Positions 5,454-36,409 of a stretch of DNA of 50,249 nt are shown piece after piece. The notes below the pieces were generated by a model that saw only the letters and a program-made list of their open reading frames with translations, was not told the DNA's origin and searched no databases. The stretch is from a virus, in IMG/VR virus record IMGVR_UViG_3300030906_000025, positions 1 through 50,249 of that record; one strand, 5' to 3'. Every line of letters starts with the position of its first letter. Within the stretch, counting starts at the first letter, position 1. The position numbers and the translations under genes were made by a program.

Positions 5454-5495
5454 CGCGCACCCCCGCCCGGTCGGTTCAAGCAGGAGGCGGGCGGG

Positions 5496-5951
5496 TCAGG
5501 CTGAGATGGCCTCGGCCCAGAAGCGGGCGAACGTGTCCCTCAGGTCACCGGAGGCCACGGTGTCCATGGCGGCCGGTTTGAGGTACGGGCGCGGCGGCAG
5601 GTGCGAGCGGTGGCCGCGCCCCGCCCAGCCGCCCAGCTCCTGGATGCGGGAGTAGACCAGGCCGCTGGACAGGGTGCACACCCAGCCGCCGATGCCGTCG
5701 GGGGTGGGCATGGTGTGCGTCCAGGAGTTCTGCAGCGTGCCGTCGATCTTCGCGGGCGGCTGGCCGCGCGGCGACGGCGTCCTGGTGCCGCGCGTGTGCG
5801 AGTAGCGCTCCAAGCTGGAGCGGGCACGCTTCTCGACCAGGTCCCGGGATGCTTCGGCGGCCTGCGCGGTCGCCGTGTCCAGGCGCGCAGCCATCGCCCG
5901 CAGCGCGGCGACCGCGTCGCTGATCCCGCTGACCGCAACGGTGAGGGGCAT
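5496..5951 (-). CDS. HK97 gp10-like tail completion / neck protein
   Basis: Probable head-tail joining or tail terminator protein of the HK97 gp10 (minor capsid/tail completion) type. The 151 residues start MPLTVAVSGISDAVAALRAM, continue as an alpha helix, then show the family's typical ending with a GG-W-x-G region (ELGGWAGRGHRSHLPPRPYL), where the residues before PRPYLKPA are characteristic of gp10-like proteins. It lies between the tail chaperone and the tape measure, later than usual, since this family normally precedes the major tail protein. The start is ATG, 10 bases after the preceding stop. Confidence 0.7.
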   Translation of the reverse strand: MPLTVAVSGISDAVAALRAMAARLDTATAQAAEASRDLVEKRARSSLERYSHTRGTRTPSPRGQPPAKIDGTLQNSWTHTMPTPDGIGGWVCTLSSGLVYSRIQELGGWAGRGHRSHLPPRPYLKPAAMDTVASGDLRDTFARFWAEAISA

Positions 5952-5961
5952 CGCACACCCC

Positions 5962-6644
5962 CTACTTCCGCGACTTCTTCTCGGTCTTCTTGCGCTCCCT
6001 CTCCTCGGCCTCCGCGATCAGGCCGAGGAAGTCCATGCTGTAGCGGCGCACATAGTAGGGAGTGGCCTCCAACTGCTGCCACGACCAGCGCATGCGCTTC
6101 ATGAGCACGAAGTCGCGCCACTCCGCGGGCGCAGGTTCGGAGTGGCCCCAGGTCCCGCCGAGGATGCTCTCCACCGGGAGCAGCACGTCCTCGAAATAGG
6201 GATCACCGGGGCCTACGTGGGGTTTGCCCCGCCGGCCTTGAACTCCTCCGCCAAGCGGTTCGTGATCGCGAGCGGCAGCTGTGCGACGGTCTCCAGTGAC
6301 GGCTTGCCGAGGGGGGCCTGCTCGCGGGATTCCAGGCGCGCCATGAGTGCTTCGAGGTCGCTGTCGTCGTCGAGGTCGATGTCGGCGAGGTCTTCGGTGG
6401 CGGGGTAGATGTTGCGCCACGCGACGATGACTTCGACCAGCACTTCGGTCATGGCGGCGCGCTGTACCGCGCGGTCGGGGGATTCGCTGGCGGCGACGAC
6501 GGCTTCGATCTTCTCGGGGGGCAGGAGCTTGGGGTTGCGGATCAGGATGGATCCGCCTGCGGAGAGGTGGGAGAAGTCGACGAGCTTGAAGCGCTCGGTG
6601 TAGCCGGTGCCCCGGGGTGTTTCGGGGGTCTTCTTGGCGGTCAT
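5962..6644 (-). CDS. Tail assembly chaperone, frameshifted long form (G-T type)
   Basis: Long product made if ribosomes slip back one base near the end of the short chaperone frame. The extension after the slip begins KPHVGPGDPYFEDVLLPVES and contains QQLEATPYYVRRYSMDF, a motif I recognise from actinophage chaperone T-domains, then ends in a Lys/Glu-rich tail. The T extension normally binds tape measure protein while the G part binds tail tube protein. The extension frame has no suitable start of its own, which supports the frameshift. Slip site: see the separate entry. Confidence 0.75.
6213..6230 (-). promoter_or_regulatory. Putative -1 ribosomal frameshift site
   Basis: The zero frame reads GGC GGG GCA AAC CCC ACG TAG. 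A single-base backward slip on CCCC (P-site CCC re-pairs with CCC), or on the GCAAAC part, gives GGC AAA CCC CAC GTA GGC and enters the downstream chaperone extension. Slippage here matches the conserved G/GT arrangement of tailed-phage chaperones. I cannot tell which heptamer is used. Confidence 0.6.
6213..6644 (-). CDS. Tail assembly chaperone, short form (G type)
   Basis: Cytoplasmic assembly chaperone placed in the standard position between the major tail protein and the tape measure. The chosen ATG gives MTAKKTPETPRGTGYTERFK and is preceded by AGGAG five bases upstream; a longer open frame upstream reads through an untranslated-looking Pro/Arg stretch, so I reject it. 143 residues: an N-terminal beta region with a GGSILIRNPKLLPPEK turn, then acidic helices (ATEDLADIDLDDDSDLEAL). 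The stop comes right after a GGGGCAAACCCCACG run. Confidence 0.85.
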   Translation of the reverse strand: MTAKKTPETPRGTGYTERFKLVDFSHLSAGGSILIRNPKLLPPEKIEAVVAASESPDRAVQRAAMTEVLVEVIVAWRNIYPATEDLADIDLDDDSDLEALMARLESREQAPLGKPSLETVAQLPLAITNRLAEEFKAGGANPT

Positions 6645-6758
6645 GGGGGTCTCCTGGTCGGGGCGTTGCGGGCGTGGGTGTTGGGCCCCGGTTGCGGCGA
6701 CGCCCGACGCGCGCAACCGGGGAGTTGGAGGGGCTGCCACCGGGGCAGCCCTTGATCG

Positions 6759-7919
6759 TCAGTAGGCGGCGGTCGTGAAGTTCTTCAAGATCGCCTGGAC
6801 GCTGCCGCCGTCGGTGGTGTTGTAGATCCCGTTGATCGCGAAGTCGGCCTTCGCGTACGTCCCGGAGATGTCGGGCTTGCCCTTGGACCAGCCGGGCTGG
6901 CTCGTCGTCAGTGTCAGCGAACCGCCCGCCGCGTCGACGCCTGCGCCGACGGGCTGCGCCATGGTCATCGTCGTCGGGTTGTTCTGCAGCGCGCTCAAGT
7001 ACAGGTTGTAGTCGGTGTCGTTCTCGTAGATCGCGGAGTAGGTGACGTCCGCGTCCAGGACGCCCGAGAAGACCTCGCGCGGCTGCTGGGAGCCATTCGA
7101 GGCGTGGATCGCCTCCGTGGGCCGCTTCAGGTCCATGGTGTAGGTCAGGCCGCGCGTCGAGGTCGCCCCCGCGTTGGTCATCGCGAACTGCCAGCCCAGC
7201 AGCGGTGCGGGCTCGCTGAATGTCGCGGTGATGCCGGTCTGCACGGCCGGGATCCAGCCGGTGAACTTGGCGTCGATCGTGCAGATCGCCTTCGGATCGA
7301 CCTTGATCGACACGTCGGAGAGCATGCAGCCCGGGTAGCCCCAGTCCTCGAAGGAGTTGAACTCGGTGAGGCTGTACGTGGGCTTCAGGGTGGATGCGGA
7401 CTGCTTGAACGTGTGCGTCGTCTGTGTCGCCACTGCCACGGAGGAGTTGTGGGCGTACGTCAGCCCGGCGGCCGGGGCGGTGATCGGGATGGTGTAGGGC
7501 CCGGAGCCGGTCGGGACGCCGGTGGTGGCGTACTCGACCTTCAACCCGGTGTCGATCATGATGGTGGAGCCGGTCGGGATCGTGACCGCCGTCGAGATCG
7601 ACGTCGCGCCCGCGATCGTCGAGGACGACAGGGTGGTGGAGACCCCGGCCGTGACCGTGTCCGGACCGATGATCCGCAGCGCGTACCCGATCGAATCCGG
7701 ATAGGCAGGGAACTCCAGGTCGACAGTGCTGCTGCCCGGACCCTGGTACAGGCCCTGCAGGTTCGAGTCGTTGCCCCGGTAGCTGAGGTCCTGGAGCTGG
7801 TCGAACACCGGCTCGAAGTCGATCTTCGTGCAGGGCAGGAAGTACGAGGGCGTCACCCACGTCCCCTGCGTAACTTCCTTCGCCAGGCCCACATAACCGG
7901 ACCGCCCGAGCAGAGTCAT
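6759..7919 (-). CDS. Major tail tube protein
   Basis: Forms the tail tube. 386 residues starting MTLLGRSGYVGLAKEVTQGT; an early GYVGLAKEVTQGTWVTP followed by a 'L-P-x-x-K-x-D-F' strand is typical of siphovirus major tail proteins. The middle (residues ~95-160) is Thr/Ser/Gly-rich and may be an inserted beta-sandwich. The C-terminus ends in beta strands with ADFAINGIYNTTDGGSVQAI. Start overlaps the stop of the upstream 79-residue gene by four bases (ATGA type), so the two are translationally coupled. A rho-independent-like terminator precedes the pair. Length is at the upper end for the family. Confidence 0.85.
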   Translation of the reverse strand: MTLLGRSGYVGLAKEVTQGTWVTPSYFLPCTKIDFEPVFDQLQDLSYRGNDSNLQGLYQGPGSSTVDLEFPAYPDSIGYALRIIGPDTVTAGVSTTLSSSTIAGATSISTAVTIPTGSTIMIDTGLKVEYATTGVPTGSGPYTIPITAPAAGLTYAHNSSVAVATQTTHTFKQSASTLKPTYSLTEFNSFEDWGYPGCMLSDVSIKVDPKAICTIDAKFTGWIPAVQTGITATFSEPAPLLGWQFAMTNAGATSTRGLTYTMDLKRPTEAIHASNGSQQPREVFSGVLDADVTYSAIYENDTDYNLYLSALQNNPTTMTMAQPVGAGVDAAGGSLTLTTSQPGWSKGKPDISGTYAKADFAINGIYNTTDGGSVQAILKNFTTAAY

Positions 7920-8155
7920 CGCGGCCCACCTCCCTCGGGGGTGTCCGCAGCGGCAGGCCGCTTGCTCTTGATGGCGGTCTTCACGACCTCGGAATCAGGT
8001 GCCGATGCCTCGTCCCCGACCGGCGTCCAGCCAGCCAGGAGCACCGGATAGTCGGCCGTCTCACCGGGCAGCACCGCGTACGGCGCATCCCCGGCCCAGG
8101 TCCACGGATAGGCGGTGGTATTGCGCTGCAGCACGGCATCTCCCGGGGCAGTCAC
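7916..8155 (-). CDS. Small structural-operon protein, unknown
   Basis: 79 residues, starting MTAPGDAVLQRNTTAYPWTW, with no domain I recognise. It lies between the tail terminator candidate and the major tail protein and overlaps the latter by four bases, so it is probably made in step with it; a head-tail joining or decoration role would be a guess. The C-terminal third is Lys/Pro/Ala-rich (SKRPAAADTPEGGGPR) and probably unstructured. Confidence 0.75.
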   Translation of the reverse strand: MTAPGDAVLQRNTTAYPWTWAGDAPYAVLPGETADYPVLLAGWTPVGDEASAPDSEVVKTAIKSKRPAAADTPEGGGPR

Positions 8156-9815: not shown

Positions 9816-10088
9816 CTACTCTGCGACGGGCGTCTTGCGCGGACGTCCGACGCGCCTGGCCGGCGCCGGAGTGTCGGACTGCTCGCCGTTGTCGCTGTTG
9901 TCGTCATCGGCCGGGTCTGGCTCGGGCTCCGGAGCGACCTCGGGCGGTGCGATCTCGGAGAAGCCCGCGTCGCGGATACCGAGGAGCTGCAGACCGAGAT
10001 CGTAGGGGACCTCGACCGCATCCTCGGCGGTCGTCCAGCTATAGCCGCCCGGCGCCGACCCGGGCGCACGGCTCTTGCGCAGCCACAT
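9816..10088 (-). CDS. Small capsid-region protein with AT-hook-like tail
   Basis: 90 residues. The first half, YSWTTAEDAVEVPYDLGLQL, resembles short proteins that follow the capsid gene in actinophages (Rho-like or head-fibre N-terminal pieces). Then comes an acidic stretch (PEPEPDPADDDNSDNGEQSD) and a basic end with RRVGRPRK, close to an AT-hook core. Function unknown; a capsid accessory or DNA-contacting role is an inference. Confidence 0.7.
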   Translation of the reverse strand: MWLRKSRAPGSAPGGYSWTTAEDAVEVPYDLGLQLLGIRDAGFSEIAPPEVAPEPEPDPADDDNSDNGEQSDTPAPARRVGRPRKTPVAE

Positions 10089-10168
10089 GGACTGTCGCCT
10101 CCTTCAAGGAGTTGCAGGGGATGAGCTGGCCCCGGCCGAGGACTGGTCGGCCGGGGCCTGGCGCGGGA

Positions 10169-11527
10169 TCAGACAGCACTGACCAGGCGCGAGTACCGCC
10201 CGGCATATTTCGGCGCGCGCAACGCAGCCACGGTGTCGGTGACCACGGCGAACGGGAGGACGTCCGGGCTGGTCGTGGTCGGTGCCAGCGGGATGACCTG
10301 CATGTCGCGGGTGTACGGGCGCAGGAAGAAGTTGGGGTCCTTCGGCACGAGGTAGATGTCCTCGTGGCCCGCGCCGCGCGCCTTCGCCCCACTGTTGCCG
10401 CCCTGGTACAGGGTCGGGCCGGTGTTGCCGGAGCTGTTGGTCTGCAGGTTGGTGCCGGTGTCGATGATGCTGGTCACGGCAGTGCCGGTGGTGTCGAACG
10501 CGTCGACGACGCCGACGAGGGACTCGGTGCCGGTGGTGGTGGACCGGTAGACCTTGTACAGGATCGGGGAGGCGCCGTCCGGCATGTTGGTCGGGGTGGA
10601 GAAGCTCAACGTCACCGTGGACGTGGAGCCAGTGGTGGTCTGGGAGACCTCGGTGGAGCACTGGATCTCGCCGAAGCGGGCGATCACCGCACTGACCTGG
10701 TAGTAGTACGTGGTCGCCGCGAGGGTGCCGCCGGTGGTGGCGGTCGCGGTGGAGACCGCGCCCATCTGGTTGGAGCGGGGCGCGAGGAACGAGGACTCGA
10801 CCAGCGGGACGCCGCGGTAGGTCGGGACGATCAGACCGGCGGCGACCTCGATCTCGCCCATGAACCGCTGCTGCGTGCTGAGCAGCTGCGAGATGGATCC
10901 GAGGATCGCGGGCGACATGATGAACATGTAGCTGCCGCCGTTGACGGGCAGACCCGCGTTGCTGGAGACCTGTGCCATCAGCGAGTCGAGGATCTTGGTG
11001 CTGAAGGTCGCGCCCGCGCCGTCGGTCGCGTTGGTGTAGGCGTTGGAGCCGGTCCCGTTGGTGAAGTTCGAGACCAGGTAGTCCAGGCCGGAGCAGATCG
11101 GGTACAGGCCGTTGGCGGTCGCCGGGTCGTTGCCCCAGATGAAGGAGTTCTCGACGGACCACAGCATCGACTGGACGGTGCCGTCGATTTCCAGCTGCCG
11201 CAGGTCACCAACGAGGTCGCGGGTGACGGTCTGCGCGAAGCCCGTCACAGCGCCGACGGCCTGGAACAGCTTGATGTTGAAGACGGCCTGCTCGTAGGTC
11301 GAGTTGCCGAGCGGGCGGGCGCCGCCGTCGACGACGCCACCGGCGTCCGGGCGCTGGGTGCGCCGGTTGAAGAAGTACTGCGTGGAGCCCCACTGGCGGG
11401 CCGGGATCGCCGCGAGGAGCGGCGCGAACCGGCGCTGGTACTCAAGGAGCAGCGGGTCGATCTGCTTTTGCACGAGGCCCGGGACGGAAGTTGCAGCCGT
11501 CAGGGCTTCCTCAAGTTCGGTCGGCAT
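10169..11527 (-). CDS. Major capsid protein, HK97 fold, with inserted Ig/Fn3-like domain
   Basis: Forms the capsid shell. Residues ~1-255 show a capsid N-arm and core (QIDPLLLEYQRRFAPLLAAI, later QSMLWSVENSFIWGNDP, and GGSYMFIMSPAILGSI). Around residues 255-365 a Thr/Ser-rich beta module interrupts it: TYYYQVSAVIARFGE, then ILYKVYRSTTTG, which reads as an Fn3/Ig-like fold. The shell fold resumes with EDIYLVPKDPNFFLRPY. I prefer the ATG giving MPTELEEALT because GAGG lies just upstream; an ATG eight codons earlier is also open. Preceded by the protease/scaffold gene with an HNH gene between them. Confidence 0.9.
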   Translation of the reverse strand: MPTELEEALTAATSVPGLVQKQIDPLLLEYQRRFAPLLAAIPARQWGSTQYFFNRRTQRPDAGGVVDGGARPLGNSTYEQAVFNIKLFQAVGAVTGFAQTVTRDLVGDLRQLEIDGTVQSMLWSVENSFIWGNDPATANGLYPICSGLDYLVSNFTNGTGSNAYTNATDGAGATFSTKILDSLMAQVSSNAGLPVNGGSYMFIMSPAILGSISQLLSTQQRFMGEIEVAAGLIVPTYRGVPLVESSFLAPRSNQMGAVSTATATTGGTLAATTYYYQVSAVIARFGEIQCSTEVSQTTTGSTSTVTLSFSTPTNMPDGASPILYKVYRSTTTGTESLVGVVDAFDTTGTAVTSIIDTGTNLQTNSSGNTGPTLYQGGNSGAKARGAGHEDIYLVPKDPNFFLRPYTRDMQVIPLAPTTTSPDVLPFAVVTDTVAALRAPKYAGRYSRLVSAV

Positions 11528-11552
11528 GAGTGCCTCGTCTTTCGTGGGCATG

Positions 11553-11585
11553 CGAAAGCCCCGCCGGGGTGTCCGGGCGGGGCTT
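11553..11585. terminator. GC-rich hairpin between capsid gene and HNH gene
   Basis: GCCCCGCC and GGCGGGGC form a stem separated by a short loop, with AAG on one side and TTTC on the other. On the minus strand it lies immediately before the capsid start, so it could also be a 5' mRNA hairpin or processing site that protects capsid mRNA. Confidence 0.45.
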
Positions 11586-11611
11586 CGGAAGTGATGGAGA
11601 GCCGGAAGCGA

Positions 11612-11623
11612 TATGCTTCTGAC
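11612..11623 (+). promoter_or_regulatory. Candidate leaderless -10 element for HNH gene
   Basis: TATGCT followed by TCTGAC and then the ATG. The same arrangement (six-base -10, six-base gap with GAC, ATG) precedes the intein HNH gene. No clear -35 is seen at 17-18 bases. Confidence 0.4.
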
Positions 11624-12190
11624 ATGAGTTCTGATGCGTGCCTGAACGGCTGCTACCGCGCCTTATACGCCCGAGGTCTCTGCAATCCCTGTTATCAGCG
11701 CTGGCGTCGCAGGTATGCGGGTGAGGCCCTCAGTGGGCTGCCCGAAGAGCAGCGGTTCTGGGCGAAGGTAGAGAAGACGGACGACTGCTGGATCTGGGGC
11801 GGGGGCGTCAACGCGCACGGCTATGGCGGATTCGGAAGACCATCGAAGGTCGCGCACCGTGTTGCCTACGAGTTGGCCGTCGGGCTGATTCCTGAAGGTC
11901 TCGAACTCGACCACCTGTGCCACGGCAGAGACCGGTCGTGCCCTGGCGGCGACTTGTGCCCACATCGCAGATGTGTCCGACCAGACCACCTGGAGCCGGT
12001 GACCACGAAGATCAATGCTCACCGGTCTGGCAGTGTGTCTGGGCTGAACGCCGCCAAGGACGTCTGCATCCGCGACCACGAATTCGACGAGGTCAACACC
12101 TACGTCAACAAGGCAGGGCATCGTGTTTGTCGCGCATGCGCACGCGAGAAGACCCGCAAGCGCCGGGCTGCACGAGCTGCGGCGGACTGA
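11624..12190 (+). CDS. Free-standing HNH homing endonuclease
   Basis: 188 residues on the strand opposite to the structural operon. N-terminal Cys pairs (CLNGCYRALYARGLCNPCYQRW) form a zinc-binding module, then a WIWGGG...HGYGGFG domain and an HNH core, LELDHLCHGRDRSCPGGDLC followed by CVRPDHLEPVT. A second Cys pair lies at the end. Such genes are mobile and cut an empty allele. The ATG has no ribosome site, but TATGCT ends six bases upstream, matching the HNH gene in the terminase intein; it may be leaderless. An in-frame ATG lies 30 bases upstream. It ends three bases before the protease stop. Confidence 0.85.
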   Translation: MSSDACLNGCYRALYARGLCNPCYQRWRRRYAGEALSGLPEEQRFWAKVEKTDDCWIWGGGVNAHGYGGFGRPSKVAHRVAYELAVGLIPEGLELDHLCHGRDRSCPGGDLCPHRRCVRPDHLEPVTTKINAHRSGSVSGLNAAKDVCIRDHEFDEVNTYVNKAGHRVCRACAREKTRKRRAARAAAD

Positions 12191-12193
12191 CTG

Positions 12194-14005
12194 TCAGACG
12201 CCGATCTTCCCGAAGTCGCCGAGAAGGTGGTCGGCGCGGTCGTCCCACATCTCGGCGCCGGTCTTGGGCTTGGCGTCGGGGCTGTCGGTCTCGGTGGTGC
12301 GGTGCCCGGCGCGCGGCGGCAGACCGTAGGCCTTGAGGAGCTGCGGAATGGCGTCCTTCATCGCCGCATTGATGGCCTCGTCGACCTGCGCCTTGGTGTA
12401 GGTCTCCTCGGTCGGGGCCGGTGCGGTGACCGGAGCCGCGGCCTCCTGCGCCACGACAGCGGGGGCGACCGGCGCGACAGGGGTGGCCGGCGCTGCGACC
12501 GGTGCAGCCTCGGCGACCGGTGCGGCCGGTGCGACGTGCTGCAGGAGCTGCGCGAACTGCTCCTGAGTGAGGCCGACCATCAGCGGCGCGACGGACTGGG
12601 CGGTGGTGGGTGCCGGGGTGGCGGGAGCCGCCGTCTCGGCGGCCGGGGTGACGACGTCGGTCACGGCGGACTCCTTCACTGTGGGGACGGGTTCGACAAC
12701 CGGGTCCGGCGTCGAAAGCTGGGGGGCGACTGCGGGTGCGGTCTCGTCCGCGGACGCCTGCGTCGAGTTGCAGGTGCCGCAGTCGTTGCACGGGCACGGG
12801 CAGCCGGGGCCGCCTGCCATCTGGTGCGGGACGGAGCAGCCGCAGCCGCACGGGCAGCCGGAGCCGGGCTGGGGTTCGTCAGCCATGTCGGGGTCCTCCT
12901 CGTCTTCGGGTTCGTCGGCGTCGCCGAGGCCCCGGTCGATGTCTTCGGCCGGTGCGCCTTCGACGTCGATGTCGTCGTCGAGGTCCGGGTCCAGGGCGGT
13001 TAGTGCGTCGCAGGCGCCGGCCATGGCGGCGGCGCCGACCGCCTGGAGGTCGTGGGCGTCGATGAGGCGCGAGGTGACGCTGACGGTCGTCGGCCCGTTC
13101 GTCAGCGAGATGTAGATGTCGCCGCCGGACTGGTCCATGGCCCAGCATTCGGCGAGGGATTCGGAGACTGGAGCGACGGTTTCGATGAGCCAGTTCTCGG
13201 CAGACACCATCACGCCGAAGCCCTGGAGGGCCTTTCGAATCTTGGCCTTGATGTTCTTGAGCTGCTTCGACGTGTACAGGCGCGCATTGTCGGCCTGGTG
13301 GATGTAGCTCCACGCCGCCTTGGCCTTGATCTTCGTCGAGAGGTCGTACCGCTTCTGCTTGTCCTTCTGGTAGCCCGGGTCGGCGAACGGCCCGCTGGAC
13401 TGCGGTGCGGCCTCGGGGACCGGCGTGGCCGCCTCTTCGGTGATGACGGTGGCCACGGGGACCTCCCAGGTTTCGGCGATAGGGGTACGCCCGGCGGTGG
13501 CCGGCGCGGATTCGGTCGGCGGCGATCCGCCGGGGGAGTCGATGAGCGCCTGGACGACTCCGGGCGTTGCCGTCATGTCGACGGCGTCGACTTCCAAGTC
13601 GTCGGCGGTGGTGGCCATCTGGCCGTTGACTTCGACGCTCTTGGTCTCGCCGAGGAAGTAGCCGTGGATGCTGACGCTCTTGAGGCCGGGCGGCCCGCCG
13701 TCGGCTGGCTGCACGAGCGCCGCGATGTCCCGGGCTGGCGCGGTGTCGTACCAGCGGGCTTCGAAGCGGGCGGAGCCATCGGGTGCTTGCTGGACTCTGA
13801 CGACCCGACCCACGATGAGCTGGGAATTATCACCGGCGCTGTGATGTGTACGCATCACAATCGGTAGGGCGTCGGGATCTGCGATGCGCTCCTGCATCCG
13901 AGCGACGGCCTTACCGATCAGCTCCTTGGTGTACAGACACCGGTTGAGGCTGACGCCTGGGTACAGGAATGTGCCGGTGAATGGCTTGAGCGCAGCGGCG
14001 GCCAT
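12194..14005 (-). CDS. Capsid maturation protease fused to scaffold
   Basis: 603 residues. The first ~150 form the prohead protease: a conserved His pair in MRTHHSAGDNSQLIVGRV and a serine strand LKSVSIHGYF, consistent with an S78/U35-type His-Ser enzyme. Residues ~215-265 (KRYDLSTKIKAKAAWSYIHQ) match a helical module often annotated DUF6582 in actinophages. A Cys cluster, GCPCGCGCSVPHQ plus CPCPCNDCGTC, near residue 390 is unusual. The C-terminal 190 residues are Ala/Pro/Val-rich and end in a helix EETYTKAQVDEAINAAM, typical of scaffold. The protease normally cleaves the scaffold away during maturation. Confidence 0.8.
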   Translation of the reverse strand: MAAAALKPFTGTFLYPGVSLNRCLYTKELIGKAVARMQERIADPDALPIVMRTHHSAGDNSQLIVGRVVRVQQAPDGSARFEARWYDTAPARDIAALVQPADGGPPGLKSVSIHGYFLGETKSVEVNGQMATTADDLEVDAVDMTATPGVVQALIDSPGGSPPTESAPATAGRTPIAETWEVPVATVITEEAATPVPEAAPQSSGPFADPGYQKDKQKRYDLSTKIKAKAAWSYIHQADNARLYTSKQLKNIKAKIRKALQGFGVMVSAENWLIETVAPVSESLAECWAMDQSGGDIYISLTNGPTTVSVTSRLIDAHDLQAVGAAAMAGACDALTALDPDLDDDIDVEGAPAEDIDRGLGDADEPEDEEDPDMADEPQPGSGCPCGCGCSVPHQMAGGPGCPCPCNDCGTCNSTQASADETAPAVAPQLSTPDPVVEPVPTVKESAVTDVVTPAAETAAPATPAPTTAQSVAPLMVGLTQEQFAQLLQHVAPAAPVAEAAPVAAPATPVAPVAPAVVAQEAAAPVTAPAPTEETYTKAQVDEAINAAMKDAIPQLLKAYGLPPRAGHRTTETDSPDAKPKTGAEMWDDRADHLLGDFGKIGV

Positions 14006-14222: not shown

Positions 14223-14594
14223 TCACCTGCCGTACAGGCTGAGCGTCACACCAGTGAACGCGGGGGTGGTGCCGCCGAGCGTCCACGTGACCTGGCACAG
14301 CATCGGCAGGACCAGGTTCGAGGTGTGCAGGCCGCAGGACCCGGACTGATGGCCAGCTGCCGTGAGCGCGGTCAGTGCCAGGGCGGCAGGGTAGACGTTG
14401 GCGTCCTGGTCGAGGAGGTCGACCTGGACGGTGAGTGTCGGGGTCGTGCCGCTGGGGGCGTTCGCGACGAAGGCGGCGAGCCACAGGTCGGTGACGTCGT
14501 GGATGTCCAGAACCACGGAGGAGGTGCTGGACGCCCCAATGAGGGAGGCGCCGTCCAGGGACCAGACCTTGCGGCCGTACGGATAGATCGCCAC
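14223..14594 (-). CDS. Beta-rich structural protein, unknown
   Basis: 123 residues, MAIYPYGRKVWSLDGASLIG..., dominated by alternating hydrophobic and Ser/Thr residues, which suggests a small beta sandwich. It lies between the MuF-type head protein and the protease in the head operon; head decoration is a reasonable inference but no family match is evident. Start lies two bases after the MuF stop. Confidence 0.7.
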   Translation of the reverse strand: MAIYPYGRKVWSLDGASLIGASSTSSVVLDIHDVTDLWLAAFVANAPSGTTPTLTVQVDLLDQDANVYPAALALTALTAAGHQSGSCGLHTSNLVLPMLCQVTWTLGGTTPAFTGVTLSLYGR

Positions 14595-14596
14595 AG

Positions 14597-16060
14597 CTAC
14601 TCCTCGCCTTCGTCGGGGATCGCGGTTGACGGCGGGGGAGCGCCGGGGACATCGGCATCCGCCGGCGAAAGCACACAGCGACAGTTCGGGTGAAGCGGCG
14701 GCACGGGCGCGTCGGCGATGGCGTACGGGCTGCCGCTCTCGGCGTCCTGGCAGGCCGCGCAGACGTTGTTGCCGCCGGCGGTCCAGTAGTTGAGCATGGT
14801 GACGCCGCCGTCAGTGAATGTGCCGACCGCGCCGCTGCTCCATGCCTGGCCCATGGCCATGTCGAGGGGGGCGGTGACCGGGGTGGCGCCGTCGCCGGTG
14901 AGTGCGGCGCGGACGGCGGCGAGGAGCGCTGCGAGGGTCAGCTTCGCGGCGAAGCCCTTGGCGAGGAGTCGCGCGAGTGTCGAAGCCGCGCCGGACATGA
15001 TTTTCGCTGCGACGGGTGGTGCCTGCCCCCAGGTCGTGAGGTCGCTGATGTCGTCGCGGGCTGAGTCGTAGGCGGCGGCCATGTCGTGCTTGCTGCCGCT
15101 GATGGCACGCCCTGCCGCTGCACCTTCAGCCTGGGCATCACCCAGCGCAGTGGTGATGCTGTCGAGGAACTTCTGGTAGGCGGGGTCGGCCATGTTGGCG
15201 CCAATGAATGCTTGGCGTGCGATGGCGAGGGCCTGCATCCTGATGGCCTGCGGCGACTGGTCGGGCAGATTGGGTGCTTGGGCGTGGAAGCTTCCGACGA
15301 GTTCGTCGAGGGAGATGAGTTGCAGGCACTTGGCCCAGGCGGCGAGGACTGCGGCCTGGTGCTGCTTCTCGCGCTTCTCGCGGCGCTGGTAGATCAGCGC
15401 CCAGGTCCCTTCAAGCTGCCCGATCTTGATGGTGGCTTCGAGGACGGCCGGGGCATCGGGATGCCCGCACGCCCATTCGACTGCGGCGATCGAGGCTGCG
15501 CGGACCTCGTCGGTCATCGGGGCGTCGCGGACGCTGGCCCAGCCCGTGGCGAATGCGGTCCGGGCGTCCTCGCGCAGACTGCTGGCGGTCTCACTGGCGA
15601 GGGTGTAGCCGGTGCGGTCGCCTGCGTGGACGGCGTTGACCGTGGTGAACAGGACGGGCGTGCACGGGATGCGGTCGATGGGCGACTCGGCGTCCGGGTC
15701 GATGAATGCGATCGAGATGTGCGCGGTGTGGCCGTGCTCGCGCGGGACGTCTATGCCGTGCGCGGCGAGTACATCAAGGGTGTCGCGGCGCAGGTCCTCG
15801 ATTCCGGGCCCGTCGACGAGGGCAACGATGACATCCAGTTCGCCGCCGGTGAACCGGGCATGGCCGGAGATGCTTGCCTGGATCGGTGGCCGGTCGGCGA
15901 GGCTCGCCGCGACCTTGCGCAGCGTGTCCCGGTCGACGCCGACCGCCGGGCCCGTGTAGGCAATCGTGCAATGCATGGACTCGGGCAAGATGCCGCCAGG
16001 GACGGCAAGCTGCTCGGCGAGGTCAAGCGGCGGATACAGGGCGATCATGCTGCCGTTCAC
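14597..16060 (-). CDS. 2H phosphoesterase domain fused to MuF-type minor head protein
   Basis: 487 residues with two parts. Residues ~5-155 are a 2H phosphoesterase (LigT/CPD-like): the two catalytic motifs are visible as H30-C-T32 in SMHCTIAYTG and H114-I-S116 in HTAHISIAF. Residues ~165-487 are a portal-associated MuF/SPP1 gp7-like head protein, with long helices and the conserved ending CAACQDAESG...PPLHPNCRC. MuF proteins can enter the capsid and be ejected with DNA (family knowledge), so the enzyme may be delivered into the cell. 2H enzymes act on cyclic phosphodiesters: RNA 2',3' ends or cyclic oligonucleotides. Which substrate is used here cannot be seen. Confidence 0.8.
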   Translation of the reverse strand: MNGSMIALYPPLDLAEQLAVPGGILPESMHCTIAYTGPAVGVDRDTLRKVAASLADRPPIQASISGHARFTGGELDVIVALVDGPGIEDLRRDTLDVLAAHGIDVPREHGHTAHISIAFIDPDAESPIDRIPCTPVLFTTVNAVHAGDRTGYTLASETASSLREDARTAFATGWASVRDAPMTDEVRAASIAAVEWACGHPDAPAVLEATIKIGQLEGTWALIYQRREKREKQHQAAVLAAWAKCLQLISLDELVGSFHAQAPNLPDQSPQAIRMQALAIARQAFIGANMADPAYQKFLDSITTALGDAQAEGAAAGRAISGSKHDMAAAYDSARDDISDLTTWGQAPPVAAKIMSGAASTLARLLAKGFAAKLTLAALLAAVRAALTGDGATPVTAPLDMAMGQAWSSGAVGTFTDGGVTMLNYWTAGGNNVCAACQDAESGSPYAIADAPVPPLHPNCRCVLSPADADVPGAPPPSTAIPDEGEE

Positions 16061-16129: not shown

Positions 16130-16873
16130 CTAGCTGATCGCTGCCCAGATCGTCGCGGCGAGGTTGCCCGACGCCGAGCCCAGCGTCACCGACTGCGGCA
16201 TCGCCGTCTGCGACGTACCCGAGGACAGGAACCGGCCCGTCGCCGTGGCCAGGCCGGCGTTGCCGATCGAGACGCCGCCGGGCTTGAGCGCCGACCCTGA
16301 GGCCAGGGTGATCGCGGTGCCGCCGTTGCACAGCACCCCAACGTAGTAGGCACCCGGGGCGGCGCTCACTACGGGGCTCGCCCAGGCAGCGGTGATCAGG
16401 CCAGCGCTGGCGAAGGCCGTGCTCTGGTCAGCCGAGATCGCGATCTGCGTGCCGGTCGAGTTGAACAGCGCCAGGTAGTTCTCGGACGCGGTCAGTGTGC
16501 CACCTGCCGTAGATACCTCGACGAGTCCGTTGGTGAGGGTCTGCTGCTGCGTCACGATGACCTTCGAGAGGTACACGACCCCCGCGGTGGTCAGGAACGT
16601 CGATGCCGCTGCGGCCGGGTCGAAGGACCAGGCGATCAGACCGGAGTCCGCGGCCGTCGGGTCCGGGTTCTTCAGCGAGGTGACATTGCCGGAGGTGTCC
16701 ATGAACACGGCGACGCCGTACTGGGAGTAGACGACAGCACCACCGGACGGGGTCGCGGGGGCAGTGGTCTGATTGGTCAGGTTCGCGCCCCGGTTGACGG
16801 TCAGGTGGTCAACGGTGATGTCGGTGTTGACGCGTCCGGTGACGACGGGTTCCTGCTCGCCTGCCTGGGCCAT
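16130..16873 (-). CDS. Virion surface protein sharing a fibre C-terminal domain
   Basis: 247 residues. I chose the ATG giving MAQAGEQEPVVTGRVNTDIT because GGAGC precedes it. After a short N-terminal hinge, residues ~75-247 align by eye with the last ~177 residues of the 830-residue fibre gene: SGLIAWSFDP against QGLIAWNYDP, ENYLALFNSTGT against ENLIGLYNSSGT, and AYYVGVLCNG against KYYVGFLYNG. The two are paralogues of one beta-rich tip domain. It sits in the head operon, so it may decorate the capsid or neck rather than the tail. Confidence 0.75.
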   Translation of the reverse strand: MAQAGEQEPVVTGRVNTDITVDHLTVNRGANLTNQTTAPATPSGGAVVYSQYGVAVFMDTSGNVTSLKNPDPTAADSGLIAWSFDPAAAASTFLTTAGVVYLSKVIVTQQQTLTNGLVEVSTAGGTLTASENYLALFNSTGTQIAISADQSTAFASAGLITAAWASPVVSAAPGAYYVGVLCNGGTAITLASGSALKPGGVSIGNAGLATATGRFLSSGTSQTAMPQSVTLGSASGNLAATIWAAIS

Positions 16874-17035
16874 GATGCTCCGCTCGTGGGATTTGCCGGG
16901 TGGCCGGTCGTGAAGGGCGCCGCCGTCCATCGGCGCGCGCGGATATCGAACCGTGCGTCACCGTTGCGTAACGTGCTGACGGTGGATCATGTGGCGCTGC
17001 GAAGCTGGCCGCCCACCGAACCCCAGGGGGACACC

Positions 17036-17702: not shown

Positions 17703-19310
17703 TCACCTCCCTGCTCCTACGAGTTCGCGGGCAGGCGGGAGTTCGGCGAGGGCCTGGGTGCGGCGCGCCCGGTAGGTGCGCCGCCATTCCTCGTCGAGGC
17801 TCTCGCGGGGCCCCGTGCCTTGCGGCAGGTCGCCGGCCAGGCCGGGGCCGTCCTCGGGGCCGAGCGGCGACGCGTCGAACGGGACGGGCTGGACAACGGG
17901 CGGCTCAACGGGATCCGGCTTGCTGAGCGTCACCGGGGTGCCGGGTGTCGGGGCGTCGGGCTCCAGGGAGGTGCCCTTGAGCTTCATGGCAATGCCGGCC
18001 TTGGACATGGCGTCCATGTCGGACCACTTGACGAGGTTCTGGCGGTCGACCAGGACCGGGTCGTCGCCGCCGTCGACGGGGGGTTCGCCGATCTCGTCGC
18101 GGACGCGGTTCAGGGTGTAGGAGCCGTTGCGCAGGCGGGTGTCGCGGATGTTCTCAACGGTCGTCGAGTCGCGGTAGTCGATCTCGGGGAATTCGAGGTG
18201 CCAGTCCTCGATGCCGAAGCCCTGCTGCAGCAGATGAAAGTTGATCTTCTCCAGGACGAGGGACTGCACCGGGATGATGGTGTTGATTCGCAGCGTTTTG
18301 TCCTGAGACTCCCCAGTGCCGCCGCCCAGGTTGCCGGACTCGATGATCCCCAGCTTGCCCGGCGGGACACCAAACGTGGCGATGATCTCGTCGCGCAGTT
18401 GCTTGCTGGCGGCCAGGTAGTCGGTGACCTTGCGCGGGTCCAGGACCTCGACCTTGCCGTCGCCGGTCGTGATCGTGGGGTTGCCGACCGCCTTCGGCCC
18501 CAGATTGAAGACCATGTACTGCTCGCGCCACCGCTGCACCTCAGTGTCGGACAGGTGCCCGAGGTCGACGTGGATCCGCGGCGGGTCGCCCCGGCGGAAA
18601 CACTCCTTGATCGTCGCTTCGGTGAACAGCCACGCCGTCACCGGCAGCAGTGCCTTCTGCGTCGGACCCACCCCGTAGGAGCCACCCCGCGGCGCGTCCA
18701 GCGAGATGTGGATGACCTGCTCCGGAGTGAACTCGGCCGTCCGCGTGCCGCCCAGGCCGTCCACAACCTGGATGTACCCGGTGACCTCGCCGTGCGCGTC
18801 CGCGACGACCGTCATCGTCGTCGAGTCCAGGGTGTACAGCGCGACCGGCTCGCCCAGCAGCGTCACGATCTCGATGTACGCGTCCCCGAACAAGTTCAGG
18901 TCGATCACAGCGGACCGCAGGAGCTGCACCATGTCCTGGCGCGGGTTCACATACCGCATCAGGCGGCGCAGCCGTGTCACCTCGGGCGTGTCCGGCGGCA
19001 CTGTCCCGTCGTCCGACAGCGCATCCGACACCACCTGCAGGCCGCCCGCAGTGACCGTGCGTGCGATCAGATCGATCGGCGCGGCCACCCACGGGCACGT
19101 CAGGTACGCCTGGTACAGCTGCGTCATGACCTGCTGGCGTTCCTGGCTGTACGCTGCCGCGGTGCGCGACGTCGTCGGCATGAGCGCCGTGCCGTACTCG
19201 TAGCCGATACGCTGCGCGCCCGCCGCAGCCGAAGCCGACGGACCGGCCGGGGCGGCCTCGGCTACCGGGGTCCGGCGGAAGGCATCGCGGATACGTGCTC
19301 CTAGCCCCAC
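17703..19310 (-). CDS. Portal protein
   Basis: Dodecameric DNA channel at the capsid vertex. 535 residues of the HK97 (SPP1/HK97-type) portal family. The core shows YLTCPWVAAPIDLIARTVTA at the N-terminal wing, LNLFGDAYIEIV and ALYTLDSTTMTVV strands, EQVIHISLDAPRGGSYGVGP, and the stem/channel helix region KQLRDEIIATFGVPPGKLGI. The C-terminal ~90 residues are Pro-rich and disordered, then basic. It overlaps the end of the large terminase gene by ten bases, as expected for a packaging-to-head operon. Confidence 0.95.
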   Translation of the reverse strand: MGLGARIRDAFRRTPVAEAAPAGPSASAAAGAQRIGYEYGTALMPTTSRTAAAYSQERQQVMTQLYQAYLTCPWVAAPIDLIARTVTAGGLQVVSDALSDDGTVPPDTPEVTRLRRLMRYVNPRQDMVQLLRSAVIDLNLFGDAYIEIVTLLGEPVALYTLDSTTMTVVADAHGEVTGYIQVVDGLGGTRTAEFTPEQVIHISLDAPRGGSYGVGPTQKALLPVTAWLFTEATIKECFRRGDPPRIHVDLGHLSDTEVQRWREQYMVFNLGPKAVGNPTITTGDGKVEVLDPRKVTDYLAASKQLRDEIIATFGVPPGKLGIIESGNLGGGTGESQDKTLRINTIIPVQSLVLEKINFHLLQQGFGIEDWHLEFPEIDYRDSTTVENIRDTRLRNGSYTLNRVRDEIGEPPVDGGDDPVLVDRQNLVKWSDMDAMSKAGIAMKLKGTSLEPDAPTPGTPVTLSKPDPVEPPVVQPVPFDASPLGPEDGPGLAGDLPQGTGPRESLDEEWRRTYRARRTQALAELPPARELVGAGR

Positions 19311-21838
19311 GGTCCACCGCCCCCCGTCGCGACGGGGAAACCGCCGAAGCTCGTCGGCAGCTGCGCCGGAGGGAGAGGAACGGTGACCGCGGGTTGGGCC
19401 TGCGGGTCGACGTGGGTTGTCTCAGGCTCTTCGCCAGGGAAGTGCCAGCGGGACTCACCACCGATCGACATGATCAGGTAGCGGCAGTTGTGCACCAGGA
19501 CGCCGTTGGCGAAGTACTCCTCGACGTCTTCGACGGAAAGGTTGTATACGTCAGCCCGTCCGGCGTCGGACAGTCCAAGAACATGCGCGGGAGCAATTTC
19601 GGGTCGAGGCGTAGCGATTGATGCGGAACGTCTCGCCGCAGCCCTCGCACGTGCGGTCCACGTCGTCGATTCCGCTCGCCTTTCGGGCATAGGCGCGGCA
19701 CTTCCCAGAACAAAACCGCGTCGATTCGTTGCGGTCGGTAGTTTCGAACACCTCGCCGCAATGCGCGCACGCCAGCGTGCGCGGCTCGCGCCCGATCCAA
19801 GCTCGCCTTCCGTTCTCGGAGTGCCAGGCACGCCCCTCGTCGCTGCGGTGCCATTCTGCGGCCAGCTGCTGGTTAGCCGCCCATGCCGTGCGCTGAGCAT
19901 CGCTCCGCGGCTGATCCCCGTGATGAGAGCGGTGGACCTCGTTGGGCACACAGACGAGATTGTCGATCGAGTTGTTGTCTGGATCGTGGTCCCGATGATG
20001 GGTATCGAAGCCCTCGGGTATCGGGCCGTGTGCAGCCTTCCAGATTTCCTGATGGAGGCGGCCGACGCCGCGCGCGCGATGACTCCCGCCTGGCGTGAAG
20101 TAGACCTGTTCAGTTCTGCGCTTGGCGTCCGGATAGCGGCGGAAAGTGATGCCGTTGAAGACGACAGATTCAACCCTTGGGCGCTTGCGTGGCATGTCTG
20201 AATTCTATCAAGGTATCTCAGGGAATCGAGCCGAACGAAGCCTTCCCCCTGCACGAAGACGGGATGATTCCCGGTTCCAATCAGCTCGCGTCCGTTGCTC
20301 ATTGAGACCTTGAGTACGGGCTGCGCAATGCCAGTGCGAGCTGAGTCGCGCACCCGTCGCCACCCCTGTCGGGTCATCACTTCGTCGCCGACGCGGACGT
20401 CCTCGATGGGGACGTCGCCGCGGCTCGTGGAGATCAGCGTCCCGGCAACGAAGCAGGCGTCGTACCAATGGTCTGGGCCATCGGTGTCGACGTCCTCCGG
20501 CCGGTGCGGATCGCGCGGCAGCTCGCCCATGGTCTTCGTGAACTGCGGGCAGGCGCCGTCGAGGATATGCAGCAGCGGGCAGGTCGCCCAACCGAGTTCG
20601 CGGTGGTAGGCGCACGCTGGCGCTTCGGCGAGGTAGGTGTGCATGCGGGCCTTGCCGCCGAGCCGGTCGGTGTCGGCCTTCGTCAGGTGCAGGCCCTCGG
20701 TCGCCATCTGATCGGCCGGCGGGAGCGAGGACCCCGTCTTGCCCCACATGGCGGGGTCGGCCGCGATCGCCAGCACATGATGGCCGGCGTTGGCGTCGAG
20801 GATCTGCCGGGCCTGCTCGCGCTCCGGTGTCTGGACCATCGTCAGCTCGCGGTAGAACCACAGCCGCCCGTCGCCGTCCTTCGCCGCGGCCAGGTACACC
20901 GACGGCGCTGCCCAGCCGTAGTCCATGCCGCCGCGCCGCTGCCACGATGCGGGCAGCTCGCACGGCGGGACGACGATCCGGTCGCGCTTCCAGTCCGGGA
21001 ACGCGGCGTCAGGCATCGCGGACCAGTCCCCGTCCTTGATGCGTGCACGCAGGTCCGGGTCAGCGATGCCTTCGAGGCTCTTCTCGTAGTCGCCGACGTA
21101 CGGATTGTCGGACGCCTTCGCGGGGATGAAGATCCGGCGCCGCCCGGCCCTGTCGACGATCTCCTTGGTGCCGTAGTCGGTGGCGTCGACGTAGTCGTCC
21201 TTGACGACGCCGTGCCCGATGTGGCCGGGGTTGCTGGCGGAGCGTGCGCCGAGGCAGGGCACGCCTTCGACGCCGGAGCGGATGCGCGTGTAGAGGAAGT
21301 CCACGACTTCAGGCGGCATCGTGGTGCGCTCATCGATGACGAGCATGTTGATCTCCGCGCTACTGAGCGCGGCGGCCTCTTCCATGTTCTTCGCGTGCGC
21401 GAACGTCAGGATCGAGTTGCCGGGGAACCGCAGCTCGTACTTCGAGCCGTTCCAGATTCCGCCGACCGCCTTGGCGTAGTTGTATCGCGCCAGGTTCCGC
21501 AGCACCGACTGGTTCAGCTGCGGGAACGTCTTGCGGAACCAGAAGATCTGGATGCCGGGGAAGCGGACGCAGGTGCGGATGACCAGGGCCAGCAAGCTCT
21601 GGGACTTGCCGCCGCCGCCAGCCCCGCCGTAGAGCACGTCGAGGTCTTCGTCGGGCAGGGCAAGGAACCGCTCCTGCGGGCAAGTCCCGCACATCGGCGG
21701 CAAGTCGGCCTCGGGGGTCCCGGCCAGTCGGGCGAGGACCCGCGGCTTGCAGACCGGTTCGAAGCCCAGCACCGTCAGCGTGTCGGGCTTCTCGAACTCC
21801 CGGGCCGCGTACTCGGCCCAGTCCATGGTGGCGGTCAT
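19301..21838 (-). CDS. terL: Terminase large subunit interrupted by an intein
   Basis: DNA packaging motor and nuclease. 845 residues as translated; the mature protein after splicing would be 522. Walker A is GGAGGGGKSQS (~71-81), Walker B is INMLVIDERT (~163-171). The nuclease begins with GGMDYGWAAPSVYLAAA and AADPAMWGKTG; its last metal-binding Asp is in DHWYDA, directly followed by the intein (residues 462-784) and then CRYLIMSIGG. The intein therefore sits in the active site motif, so an unspliced protein should be inactive. C-terminal tail Pro/Gly-rich. Confidence 0.93.
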   Translation of the reverse strand: MTATMDWAEYAAREFEKPDTLTVLGFEPVCKPRVLARLAGTPEADLPPMCGTCPQERFLALPDEDLDVLYGGAGGGGKSQSLLALVIRTCVRFPGIQIFWFRKTFPQLNQSVLRNLARYNYAKAVGGIWNGSKYELRFPGNSILTFAHAKNMEEAAALSSAEINMLVIDERTTMPPEVVDFLYTRIRSGVEGVPCLGARSASNPGHIGHGVVKDDYVDATDYGTKEIVDRAGRRRIFIPAKASDNPYVGDYEKSLEGIADPDLRARIKDGDWSAMPDAAFPDWKRDRIVVPPCELPASWQRRGGMDYGWAAPSVYLAAAKDGDGRLWFYRELTMVQTPEREQARQILDANAGHHVLAIAADPAMWGKTGSSLPPADQMATEGLHLTKADTDRLGGKARMHTYLAEAPACAYHRELGWATCPLLHILDGACPQFTKTMGELPRDPHRPEDVDTDGPDHWYDACFVAGTLISTSRGDVPIEDVRVGDEVMTRQGWRRVRDSARTGIAQPVLKVSMSNGRELIGTGNHPVFVQGEGFVRLDSLRYLDRIQTCHASAQGLNLSSSTASLSAAIRTPSAELNRSTSRQAGVIARAASAASIRKSGRLHTARYPRASIPIIGTTIQTTTRSTISSVCPTRSTALITGISRGAMLSARHGRLTSSWPQNGTAATRGVPGTPRTEGELGSGASRARWRARIAARCSKLPTATNRRGFVLGSAAPMPERRAESTTWTARARAAARRSASIATPRPEIAPAHVLGLSDAGRADVYNLSVEDVEEYFANGVLVHNCRYLIMSIGGESRWHFPGEEPETTHVDPQAQPAVTVPLPPAQLPTSFGGFPVATGGGGPWG
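19551..20195 (-). CDS. HNH endonuclease nested out of frame within the TerL intein
   Basis: 214 residues on the same strand as terL but in a different reading frame. It starts MPRKRPRVESVVFNGITFRR; the HNH core is FDTHHRDHDPDNNSIDNLVC followed by NEVHRSHHG. Two Cys modules follow, CAHCGEVFETTD...CSGKC and CEGCGETFRI...CSRAC, probably zinc-binding DNA contacts. It has its own ATG, no ribosome site, and TAGAAT ending six bases upstream, so it may be transcribed separately and leaderless. It would promote homing of the intein without being part of it. Confidence 0.88.
   Translation of the reverse strand: MPRKRPRVESVVFNGITFRRYPDAKRRTEQVYFTPGGSHRARGVGRLHQEIWKAAHGPIPEGFDTHHRDHDPDNNSIDNLVCVPNEVHRSHHGDQPRSDAQRTAWAANQQLAAEWHRSDEGRAWHSENGRRAWIGREPRTLACAHCGEVFETTDRNESTRFCSGKCRAYARKASGIDDVDRTCEGCGETFRINRYASTRNCSRACSWTVRRRTG
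20196..20207 (-). promoter_or_regulatory. Candidate leaderless -10 element for nested HNH gene
   Basis: TAGAAT, then TCAGAC, then the HNH ATG. The local sequence is AT-rich for this genome. The pattern matches the one before the other HNH gene. Confidence 0.45.
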
Positions 21839-28081: not shown

Positions 28082-28094
28082 CACTGACCCCCGG

Positions 28095-35775: not shown

Positions 35776-36375
35776 TTACTGCTCGGCTGCGACACGGGCG
35801 GCGTTGTCCATGTCCGCATCCGTCTGCGGGGTGCCGCCGCCGTTGACGAGCAGGTAGAACGCGGCTTCGTCGGCCTCGGTGGCGCAGTCCTTCGTCTCGG
35901 CGACGAGGAGCGAGCAGTAGCGCTCCATGAACCGCTGGCCCTTGAGGGTGAGGCCGCTGTGGCGGACGAAGGGCCCGTCGCCGGTGCCCTCGGTGGTTGC
36001 GACGTGATCTGCGGGGAACCAGCTGGCGGGGACTGCGAACTCGCTGTCGAACCAGGCGACGGCGGTGGTGAGGCGCTGCTTGCCGTCGACGCACGCCCAC
36101 AGCGACTCGCCGGTCTCGTAGGGGTCGCGGCCGGGGTTGGCCTTGGCCCAGGCGGTGTTGCAGCGGTCGGCGAGGATGACGACCCCGGCGGGCAGGCCGC
36201 GCATCCAGCTCTCGACGAGGGCGATGCGCTGGTCGCCAGTCCAGACCTTGCCGCGCTGGTAGGGCGGGTCGATGTTGATCTCGCCGTCCCGGACGCGGCG
36301 GGCCAGCCAGTTGGCGCCCTGGAACGACGGGTTGAGGCTCGTATGTTCGAGCGGGGTGATGGTCTGGCGGGTCAC
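35776..36375 (-). CDS. DUF262 (GmrSD N-domain-like) protein
   Basis: 199 residues; GTG with AAGGAG seven bases upstream. The family marks are clear: INIDPPYQRGKVWTGDQRIA, LVESWMRGLPAGVVIL, and WACVDGKQRLTTAVAWFDSE. In GmrSD type IV restriction and related proteins this ParB-like fold hydrolyses NTP or cuts DNA. Here there is no HNH/DUF1524 partner in the same chain, and the length is that of the N-domain alone plus a helix. Could be a superinfection-exclusion factor, a decoy, or a phage regulator. The choice is open. Confidence 0.75.
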   Translation of the reverse strand: MTRQTITPLEHTSLNPSFQGANWLARRVRDGEINIDPPYQRGKVWTGDQRIALVESWMRGLPAGVVILADRCNTAWAKANPGRDPYETGESLWACVDGKQRLTTAVAWFDSEFAVPASWFPADHVATTEGTGDGPFVRHSGLTLKGQRFMERYCSLLVAETKDCATEADEAAFYLLVNGGGTPQTDADMDNAARVAAEQ

Positions 36376-36409
36376 GGCGGGCTCCTTGATCGGGTCGGGT
36401 GGCGGGCTT

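Follow-up and report, generated by a model that had tools for sequence, protein, structure and literature searches.

We analysed a viral DNA stretch of 50,249 nucleotides (IMG/VR record IMGVR_UViG_3300030906_000025, positions 1 to 50,249; this whole stretch is referred to here as the window) and found that one of its genes, located at 14597..16060 on the minus strand, encodes a 487-residue protein in which an N-terminal 2H phosphoesterase domain is joined to a MuF-type minor head protein. By computation, we found that the fusion is genuine, that its N-terminal part is modelled with the 2H fold, that the catalytic residues are constrained, that the domain is present in some members of the MuF lineage and has been exchanged among them, and that its association with head genes recurs. 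Taken as a whole, the evidence tips somewhat in favour of the reading that the fusion is a virion-borne enzyme delivered at infection. The coordinates and the covalent joining of the 2H domain to a head protein had been given in a first-pass annotation made from the letters alone, and both proved correct; that annotation had further proposed an injected hydrolase of nucleotide signals akin to Acb1, the phage enzyme directed against the cyclic-oligonucleotide-based antiphage signalling system (CBASS).

A 2H domain joined to a minor head protein

The gene starts with GTG, and a G-rich stretch resembling a Shine-Dalgarno sequence, judged by eye, lies immediately 5' of this codon. The window fusion protein was also found at 100% identity on two more contigs, one of them 76 kb long. 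Residues 1-156 (15593..16060, minus strand) have the 2H fold in the predicted structure, an assignment based on PF13563, phrog_2659, AlphaFold2 and a structure search of the PDB. Specifically, PF13563 (2'-5' RNA ligase superfamily) matched residues 28-125 with an E value of 3e-5 and 24.6 bits, below the curated cut-off of 27, which was clearly exceeded by relatives at loci L019, L022, L066, L077, L105 and others, and phrog_2659 ('RNA ligase') matched residues 3-156 (E 6e-13). PF13563 was the best 2H-type Pfam model in every scanned protein matching one, except that of phage Geonosis, in which LigT_PEase was marginally ahead. The AlphaFold2 model, built from 26 aligned rows, had a mean predicted local distance difference test score of 88.3, rising to about 95 over residues 1-150, and a predicted template modelling score of 0.65, which leaves the relative placing of the 2H and MuF parts uncertain. 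A Foldseek search with this model recovered known 2H enzymes (E 6e-6, probability 1.00), and the top PDB rows obtained with VIA were all 2H-fold proteins covering model residues of about 1-156, the best being 5h7e (Z 17.9, root-mean-square deviation 3.0, 158 residues aligned). A plain sequence search of the PDB with the 2H domain gave no match at E 10, and a search with the family profile succeeded, finding the archaeal LigT-like protein 1vdx at E 1e-4.

Both H-x-T/S motifs noted in the first-pass annotation are intact in the window protein, as H30-C31-T32 (15965..15973, minus strand) and H114-I115-S116 (15713..15721, minus strand). We pooled four sets of loci, retaining 2H matches above 20 bits and counting identical proteins once (as was done throughout), and obtained 91 distinct proteins with a 2H domain, 52 of which, including the window protein, were fused to a MuF core. 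Looking for loss of the histidine motifs among these relatives, we found H30 and H114 in all 52 MuF fusions; position 32 was T in 51 and P in one (L089), and position 116 was T in 38 and S in 14, thus T or S in every case. Among the 39 2H domains not fused to MuF, H30 was kept in 38 (R in L145), T32 in all 39 and H114 in 38 (one gap at a contig end), and position 116 held T or S in 37, the two exceptions being a P (L121) and a gap. Over 49 fusions, from which 2H matches below 25 bits were left out, mean column identity was 0.62, as compared with the invariance of the histidines in 52 of 52, and the catalytic residues are under strong constraint. A purely structural role in the head for a 2H domain devoid of catalysis is highly improbable: altered copies do exist, with rare residue loss in L089, L145 and L121, but the MuF fusions all retain both histidines and MuF homologues lacking the domain altogether are common (16 of 29).

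The remainder of the protein, residues 160-487 (14600..15583, minus strand), consists of a helical region and a C-terminal MuF domain and is a MuF-type minor head protein according to PHROG profiles, a Cys/His motif and structure searches. PHROG families named 'minor head' or 'head morphogenesis' matched residues 414-471 with E values of 2e-7 to 6e-5. PF04233 (Phage_Mu_F) gave E 0.023 and 15.9 bits in the window protein, below the cut-off of 29.6, and reached E ≤0.01 in 11 of the 26 family members, the best at 2.3e-4. The motif C434-x2-C437...H457-P-x-C460-R-C462 (14675..14761, minus strand) was found in the 26-row alignment, across which C434, C437, H457, C460, R461 and C462 (CxxC...HPxCRC) are invariant. 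A Foldseek search of the PDB with the MuF core gave no match at E ≤0.001, and the best VIA row had a Z of 6.1; in BFVD, 33 matches were found at E ≤0.001, with modest TM-scores (0.24-0.49 by query), and most of those carrying names were minor capsid proteins or proteins of capsid or head morphogenesis.

Optional presence, exchange and recurrence with head genes

A search with the window portal protein yielded ten loci, two of which are copies of the window's own phage. Six (L001, L017, L019, L022, L023 and L024) encode MuF with a 2H domain; in L018 and L020 the protein starts directly at the MuF core, with no 2H; and no MuF protein was matched in L021 or in L025, the latter breaking off within the portal gene. 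A scan for the MuF core, using patterns outside the 2H domain, gave 33 loci. Together, these two sets comprise 29 distinct MuF proteins, of which 13 bear 2H at the N-terminus and 16 do not, and no separate 2H gene was detected in these loci at E 0.01. The tree of MuF cores, from which the fragment L056 was omitted, has 28 rows (12 carrying 2H and 16 lacking it); on it, the 2H trait changes state 7 times, at least 5 of them on strongly supported branches, and is not clearly clustered (43 to 60 of 500 shuffles were as low). The 2H domains split into two subtypes in their own tree: that of the window, and another (L022, L023, L031, L040 and L056) which clusters with free-standing genes from phages Stormageddon, Colt and CherryTomatoes (support 99/97). 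Both are attached at one and the same junction within a single MuF lineage, which is most simply explained by two or more acquisitions. Among the 45 fusions with a MuF core of at least 250 residues, the 2H domain was more conserved than the MuF core (mean identities of 0.51 and 0.41), and the distances of the two parts agreed weakly (rho 0.24, a value reached by 29 of 2000 permutations). We conclude that the 2H domain is an optional and repeatedly exchanged cargo of this MuF lineage. A published parallel is the MuF-VIP2 fusion of phage Percival, in whose relative Floof the account describes VIP2 as absent (PMC7302621). A more general proposition, which we regard as doubtful, is that the N-terminus of this actinophage MuF lineage serves as an exchangeable port, at which 2H is gained, lost and swapped, and through which the virion may pre-emptively deliver a few molecules of a signal-destroying or RNA-processing enzyme that would act within the first minutes, ahead of phage gene expression.

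The association of 2H with head genes recurs in actinophages. From match lists of 195 and 238 records we picked, for phage diversity, 11 annotated loci (DalanDe, Colt, Ottawa, Geonosis, Salgado, Danyall, Cantare, CherryTomatoes, Stormageddon, Skog and ChisanaKitsune; loci L014 and L015, fetched through MuF matches with no 2H match, are not among them). In all 11, the 2H domain is fused to a head protein or is separated by no more than four genes from a portal, capsid protease or capsid gene, and its gene is annotated 'RNA ligase' in each except Geonosis. For example, 2H is coupled to an XkdF-type protease (PF14550, scoring above the cut-off) in Ottawa gp87 and in Salgado gp18, and Geonosis has MuF and 2H, with MuF first, in one protein of 1187 residues. 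In the scan for the second subtype (46 loci), MuF fusions made up 8 of the 37 distinct 2H open reading frames (ORFs), and a portal, protease or capsid homologue was present in the locus for 36 of the 37, although in five of these 36 it lies solely within the 2H ORF itself (L135, L145, L151, L160 and L168); in L165 and L168 the 2H ORF extends into stretches that match families of head maturation proteases or portals. Because this 2H family was itself the starting point for both the phage loci and the 2H scans, they show recurrence and not frequency.

The hosts found are Streptomyces and related actinomycetes: isolated phages with a related 2H domain infect Streptomyces, Gordonia, Arthrobacter, Brevibacterium and Mycobacterium, and the family profile detected eight loci in bacterial genomes (four Streptomyces, Peterkaempfera, Kitasatospora, a Thermomonosporaceae metagenome-assembled genome and Actinomadura). 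In six of the eight, 2H and MuF are fused and lie within a prophage-like head module. Of the other two, one gave no MuF match and one, an Actinomadura gene (L121:1852-3699), joins 2H to a histidine-kinase-type ATPase (HATPase_c), no head gene being recognised on its short contig. Other unusual architectures were seen at related loci. One ORF of at least 1840 residues (L077:4953-10472) contains 2H, the MuF core and a segment resembling an intein (Intein_splicing, below the cut-off); gp3 of Arthrobacter phage Mufasa8 (L014:2134-5136) combines portal, NUDIX and MuF in one protein; and a 728-residue portal protein (L020:9001-11187), adjoining a MuF gene without 2H, has a C-terminal extension that appears ParB/Srx-like by eye, Pfam showing portal alone.

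Proposed delivery and possible substrates of the enzyme

The 2H-MuF architecture and the idea of an injected enzyme acting on immune nucleotides are already published: PMC5512222 (2017) describes fusions of 2H with MuF or portal domains and suggests that they act as RNases (ribonucleases) or destroy immune nucleotides, and PMC9503650 (2022) makes the same proposal together with packaging and injection. The window protein shares this architecture and proposed role, and what is new here is the actinophage family with and without 2H, the two subtypes at a single junction, the strict retention of the active-site histidines and the 2H-protease fusions; the published accounts, as far as compared, are without this family, the optional presence, the two-subtype junction and the 2H-protease fusions. 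A literature search covering titles, abstract openings and text passages, with most subscription journals and bioRxiv outside its reach, brought up no experiment testing a 2H-MuF protein. Among MuF proteins, SPP1 gp7 has been studied best; a few copies of it are drawn into the procapsid interior by the portal, and it is dispensable for assembly but aids infection, only about a quarter of the virions being infectious without it. The window protein resembles SPP1 gp7 and Mu F in its MuF domain and in the position of its gene near the portal gene, and differs from gp7, which is described as having no toxin domain, in carrying an enzyme at its N-terminus.

By analogy with these proteins, we predict that the fusion is probably a virion-associated and active phosphodiesterase. 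In the proposed mechanism, the MuF-type protein would carry a metal-independent 2H phosphodiesterase at its N-terminus as optional cargo; the MuF part would bind the portal, as SPP1 gp7 does, and place one or a few copies in the capsid; and the enzyme would travel in the virion and enter the host at infection. There, the 2H domain would open a phosphodiester bond in which a 2' or 3' hydroxyl of ribose takes part; the substrate that we favour, tentatively, is a host oligonucleotide or cyclic-nucleotide alarm signal, which would be removed ahead of phage gene expression. Cargo so scarce would matter as a catalyst alone, which fits an enzyme. It is rather improbable that the enzyme is not delivered at all but works at a late stage in the cell that produces it, or is cleaved off before packaging, the fusion serving only to set its expression timing or dose. 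Many relatives do have 2H as a separate gene near the head genes, as such a role would allow, but packaging better explains the fusion to different head proteins (MuF, XkdF protease and protease- or portal-type ORFs) and the two subtypes on one MuF lineage. If the enzyme is in the particle, the phage would be able to act against nucleotide signalling or RNA damage in the host before transcription has begun, and so overcome the problem of timing that defences such as CBASS pose. The related head modules with (13) and without (16) 2H, of 29 MuF proteins, provide comparison pairs for a direct test.

Enzymes on MuF proteins are also known as toxins. The bench-studied examples, Bxa (an ADP-ribosyltransferase) and Apk2 (a (p)ppApp synthetase), carry the enzyme on the C-terminal side and have adjacent immunity genes (PMC11699363); the same account gives the biological role of MuF toxins as unknown and capsid targeting as a hypothesis. 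Whereas MuF toxins have the enzyme C-terminal to MuF and adjacent immunity ORFs (PMC5576092, PMC11699363), the window protein has it at the N-terminus with no such partner seen, and thus lacks both features of a MuF polymorphic toxin; Geonosis is an exception in the 2H family, since MuF precedes 2H there, as in the toxins. The small ORF directly downstream of the fusion (14223..14594, minus strand) is not a 2H-linked immunity gene, because its homologues also follow MuF genes without 2H (L047, L048, L049 and L051), and a toxin with an immunity partner was set aside on this ground. An injected RNase attacking host RNA during takeover, comparable with Usb1-type 2H ribonucleases, is improbable. 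The structural score of Usb1 (Z 14.7), the RNase reading offered in PMC5512222 by analogy with PBECR-MuF fusions and the variety of enzymes on such proteins (NUDIX in Mufasa8, VIP2 in Percival, the toxins Bxa and Apk2) are consistent with it, but there is no immunity-like partner, the downstream ORF being found next to 2H-less MuF genes as well.

Evidence on the substrate of the 2H domain is divided, with structure favouring LigT/CPDase and sequence profiles favouring T4 Acb1 over ThpR. A comparison with Acb1, LigT and CPDase structures, called for in the first-pass annotation, bore out the 2H fold but gave the highest scores to LigT and CPDase (Z of 14-18) and a lower one to Acb1 (11.9). The VIA Z scores were 17.9 for drCPDase, 17.6 for a Thermus LigT-like protein, 15.5 for E. 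coli LigT, 15.1 for YjcG, 13.9 for the rotavirus VP3 2'-5' phosphodiesterase, 13.7 for AKAP18, 13.2 for MHV ns2, 12.3 for a phosphodiesterase of phage BCSR5 and 10.5 for the penguinpox cyclic GMP-AMP phosphodiesterase; this ranking may follow length, Acb1 being shorter than the LigT/CPDase targets. The chains of the BCSR5 phosphodiesterase carry the name Acb1 in the family-profile search of the PDB, and the literature search found no paper on this protein. LigT/ThpR and bacterial CPDase (PF13563/PF02834) share with the window protein the fold, the two H-x-T/S motifs and the best structural scores, but those with solved structures are separate enzymes with about 14-18% sequence identity to the window 2H.

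Acb1 is made after infection, unlike the window enzyme, which would be a pre-emptive countermeasure carried in the particle. T4 Acb1 (gp57B, PF23474) has the same 2H fold with no fusion to a head protein, and its tetrad H44/T46/H113/T115 aligns to H30/T32/H114/S116 of the window protein, so that the paired H-x-T arrangement is common to both apart from S for the last T. In hhalign comparisons with single sequences, the family profile gave T4 Acb1 a probability of 89 over 107 columns, as against 7.7 for E. coli ThpR, and the second 2H subtype gave 66.8 and 29.2, respectively. Pfam Acb1 (PF23474) was not listed for the window protein at E ≤10; it was a secondary match in some relatives, with best values of 24.9 bits (L066, among the bit scores shown; cut-off 27) and E 7.1e-6 (listed without bits). 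Assignment to the Acb1 family was set aside, the Pfam cut-off not being reached among the bit scores shown and the base-contact residues not being evident. In Acb1, the described base-stacking residues are Y12, W74, F107 and W147, and E141 contacts adenine. In the same low-identity alignment that is considered below for Y12 and W74, F107 falls on a column of mostly E/D, with an aromatic residue at 111, and E141 and W147 are unaligned.

The principal alternative, which we consider unlikely, is a virion-borne RNA-end enzyme, LigT/ThpR- or CPDase-like, that opens the 2',3'-cyclic phosphates left by metal-independent host RNases on transfer RNA (tRNA) or ribosomal RNA, or trims ends, making them fit for repair by enzymes of the host or phage. 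The leading structural scores (drCPDase 17.9, Thermus LigT-like 17.6, E. coli LigT 15.5), the PF13563 and LigT_PEase matches in relatives and the four tRNA genes in the window are consistent with such a role, but the ranking may reflect domain length, as noted, and PMC5512222 reports never having observed an association of this 2H type with RNA ligases. We searched for RNA-repair partners in ten records with such fusions, including the window and its 76-kb relative; RtcB and KptA were found in none of these records, which may be fragments, and PF09414 RNA_ligase in two, being absent from the other eight. The window and the 76-kb relative had none of RNA_ligase, RtcB and KptA. The tRNA repair suggested in the first-pass annotation thus found little support, and a tRNA repair module was set aside because repair partners were rare in the ten records. 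For the same reason we prefer an immune nucleotide to RNA repair. That an immune nucleotide is the main substrate is nevertheless the weakest inference in our reading, and we put it forward tentatively, at somewhat short of even chances.

Several observations weigh against an injected enzyme that destroys immune nucleotides. The 2H fold alone cannot choose among RNA-end, 2'-5' and cyclic-nucleotide substrates, and, in one low-identity alignment, Y12 of Acb1 falls on M in 50 of the 52 fusions and W74 on T in 43 and on N in 8, the window protein having M and T. The active site is altered in one MuF fusion (P for T32 in L089) and in two proteins outside MuF (H30 lost in L145, P at 116 in L121). 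More than half of the MuF homologues (16 of 29) lack the 2H domain, and the association with head genes may be overestimated, the scans having been seeded on this 2H family. In addition, Bxa and Apk2, the bench-studied enzyme-MuF proteins, are described as C-terminal-side toxins and not as counter-defence, and the literature search gave no proteomics, activity or infection results for the window protein. Nevertheless, for a nucleotide-signal hydrolase injected with the head, as first proposed, the intact 2H domain joined to MuF, the constrained residues and the recurrent head association stand in favour; Acb1 was not singled out as its model.

Neighbouring genes and other features of the window

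The fusion gene sits inside a head module on the minus strand that includes terminase, portal and capsid genes. Upstream are the large terminase gene with an intein (19301..21838, minus strand; phrog_2 E 1e-29, Hint_2 E 5e-9), the portal protein gene (17703..19310, minus strand; PF04860 E 3e-27) and, between portal and 2H-MuF, a small gene of unknown function (16130..16930, minus strand; phrog_4013). Downstream are a conserved head-module gene with DUF6582 (12194..14005, minus strand; PF20223 E 2e-8), homologues of which adjoin the fusion in relatives too and which, judging from its position, may encode a protease or scaffold, and the major capsid protein gene (10169..11551, minus strand; PF17236 E 2e-9, phrog_752 E 6e-25).

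The intein of the terminase ORF (Hint_2, Intein_splicing) was accompanied by an HNH_3 endonuclease ORF in another frame (19551-20195, minus strand; E 1e-13) lying within the intein stretch, and a homing endonuclease appears to overlap the terminase intein out of frame. A similar HNH_3 ORF (7061-7696) was found in L021 inside an 825-residue ORF (5466-7943) taken for terminase by its position. Another HNH_3 match (11849-11926, plus strand), in the ORF 9947-12190 on the opposite strand between the capsid and DUF6582 genes, is probably a free-standing homing endonuclease.

Further from the head module, we found FtsK/SpoIIIE-like (just under the cut-off), DUF2637 and ParB_N genes at 38487-40757, 43370-44728 and 47726-48700 (all minus strand), respectively, suggesting a phage-plasmid or actinomycete mobile-element arm. 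A gene with a Mrr-type restriction endonuclease domain and one with a GmrSD_N domain are located at 37819-38490 and 35776-36618 (minus strand), and a gene at 25907-28084 (minus strand) encodes a 725-residue protein of unknown function, apparently composed, as judged by eye, of short TVHAGCT-like repeats.

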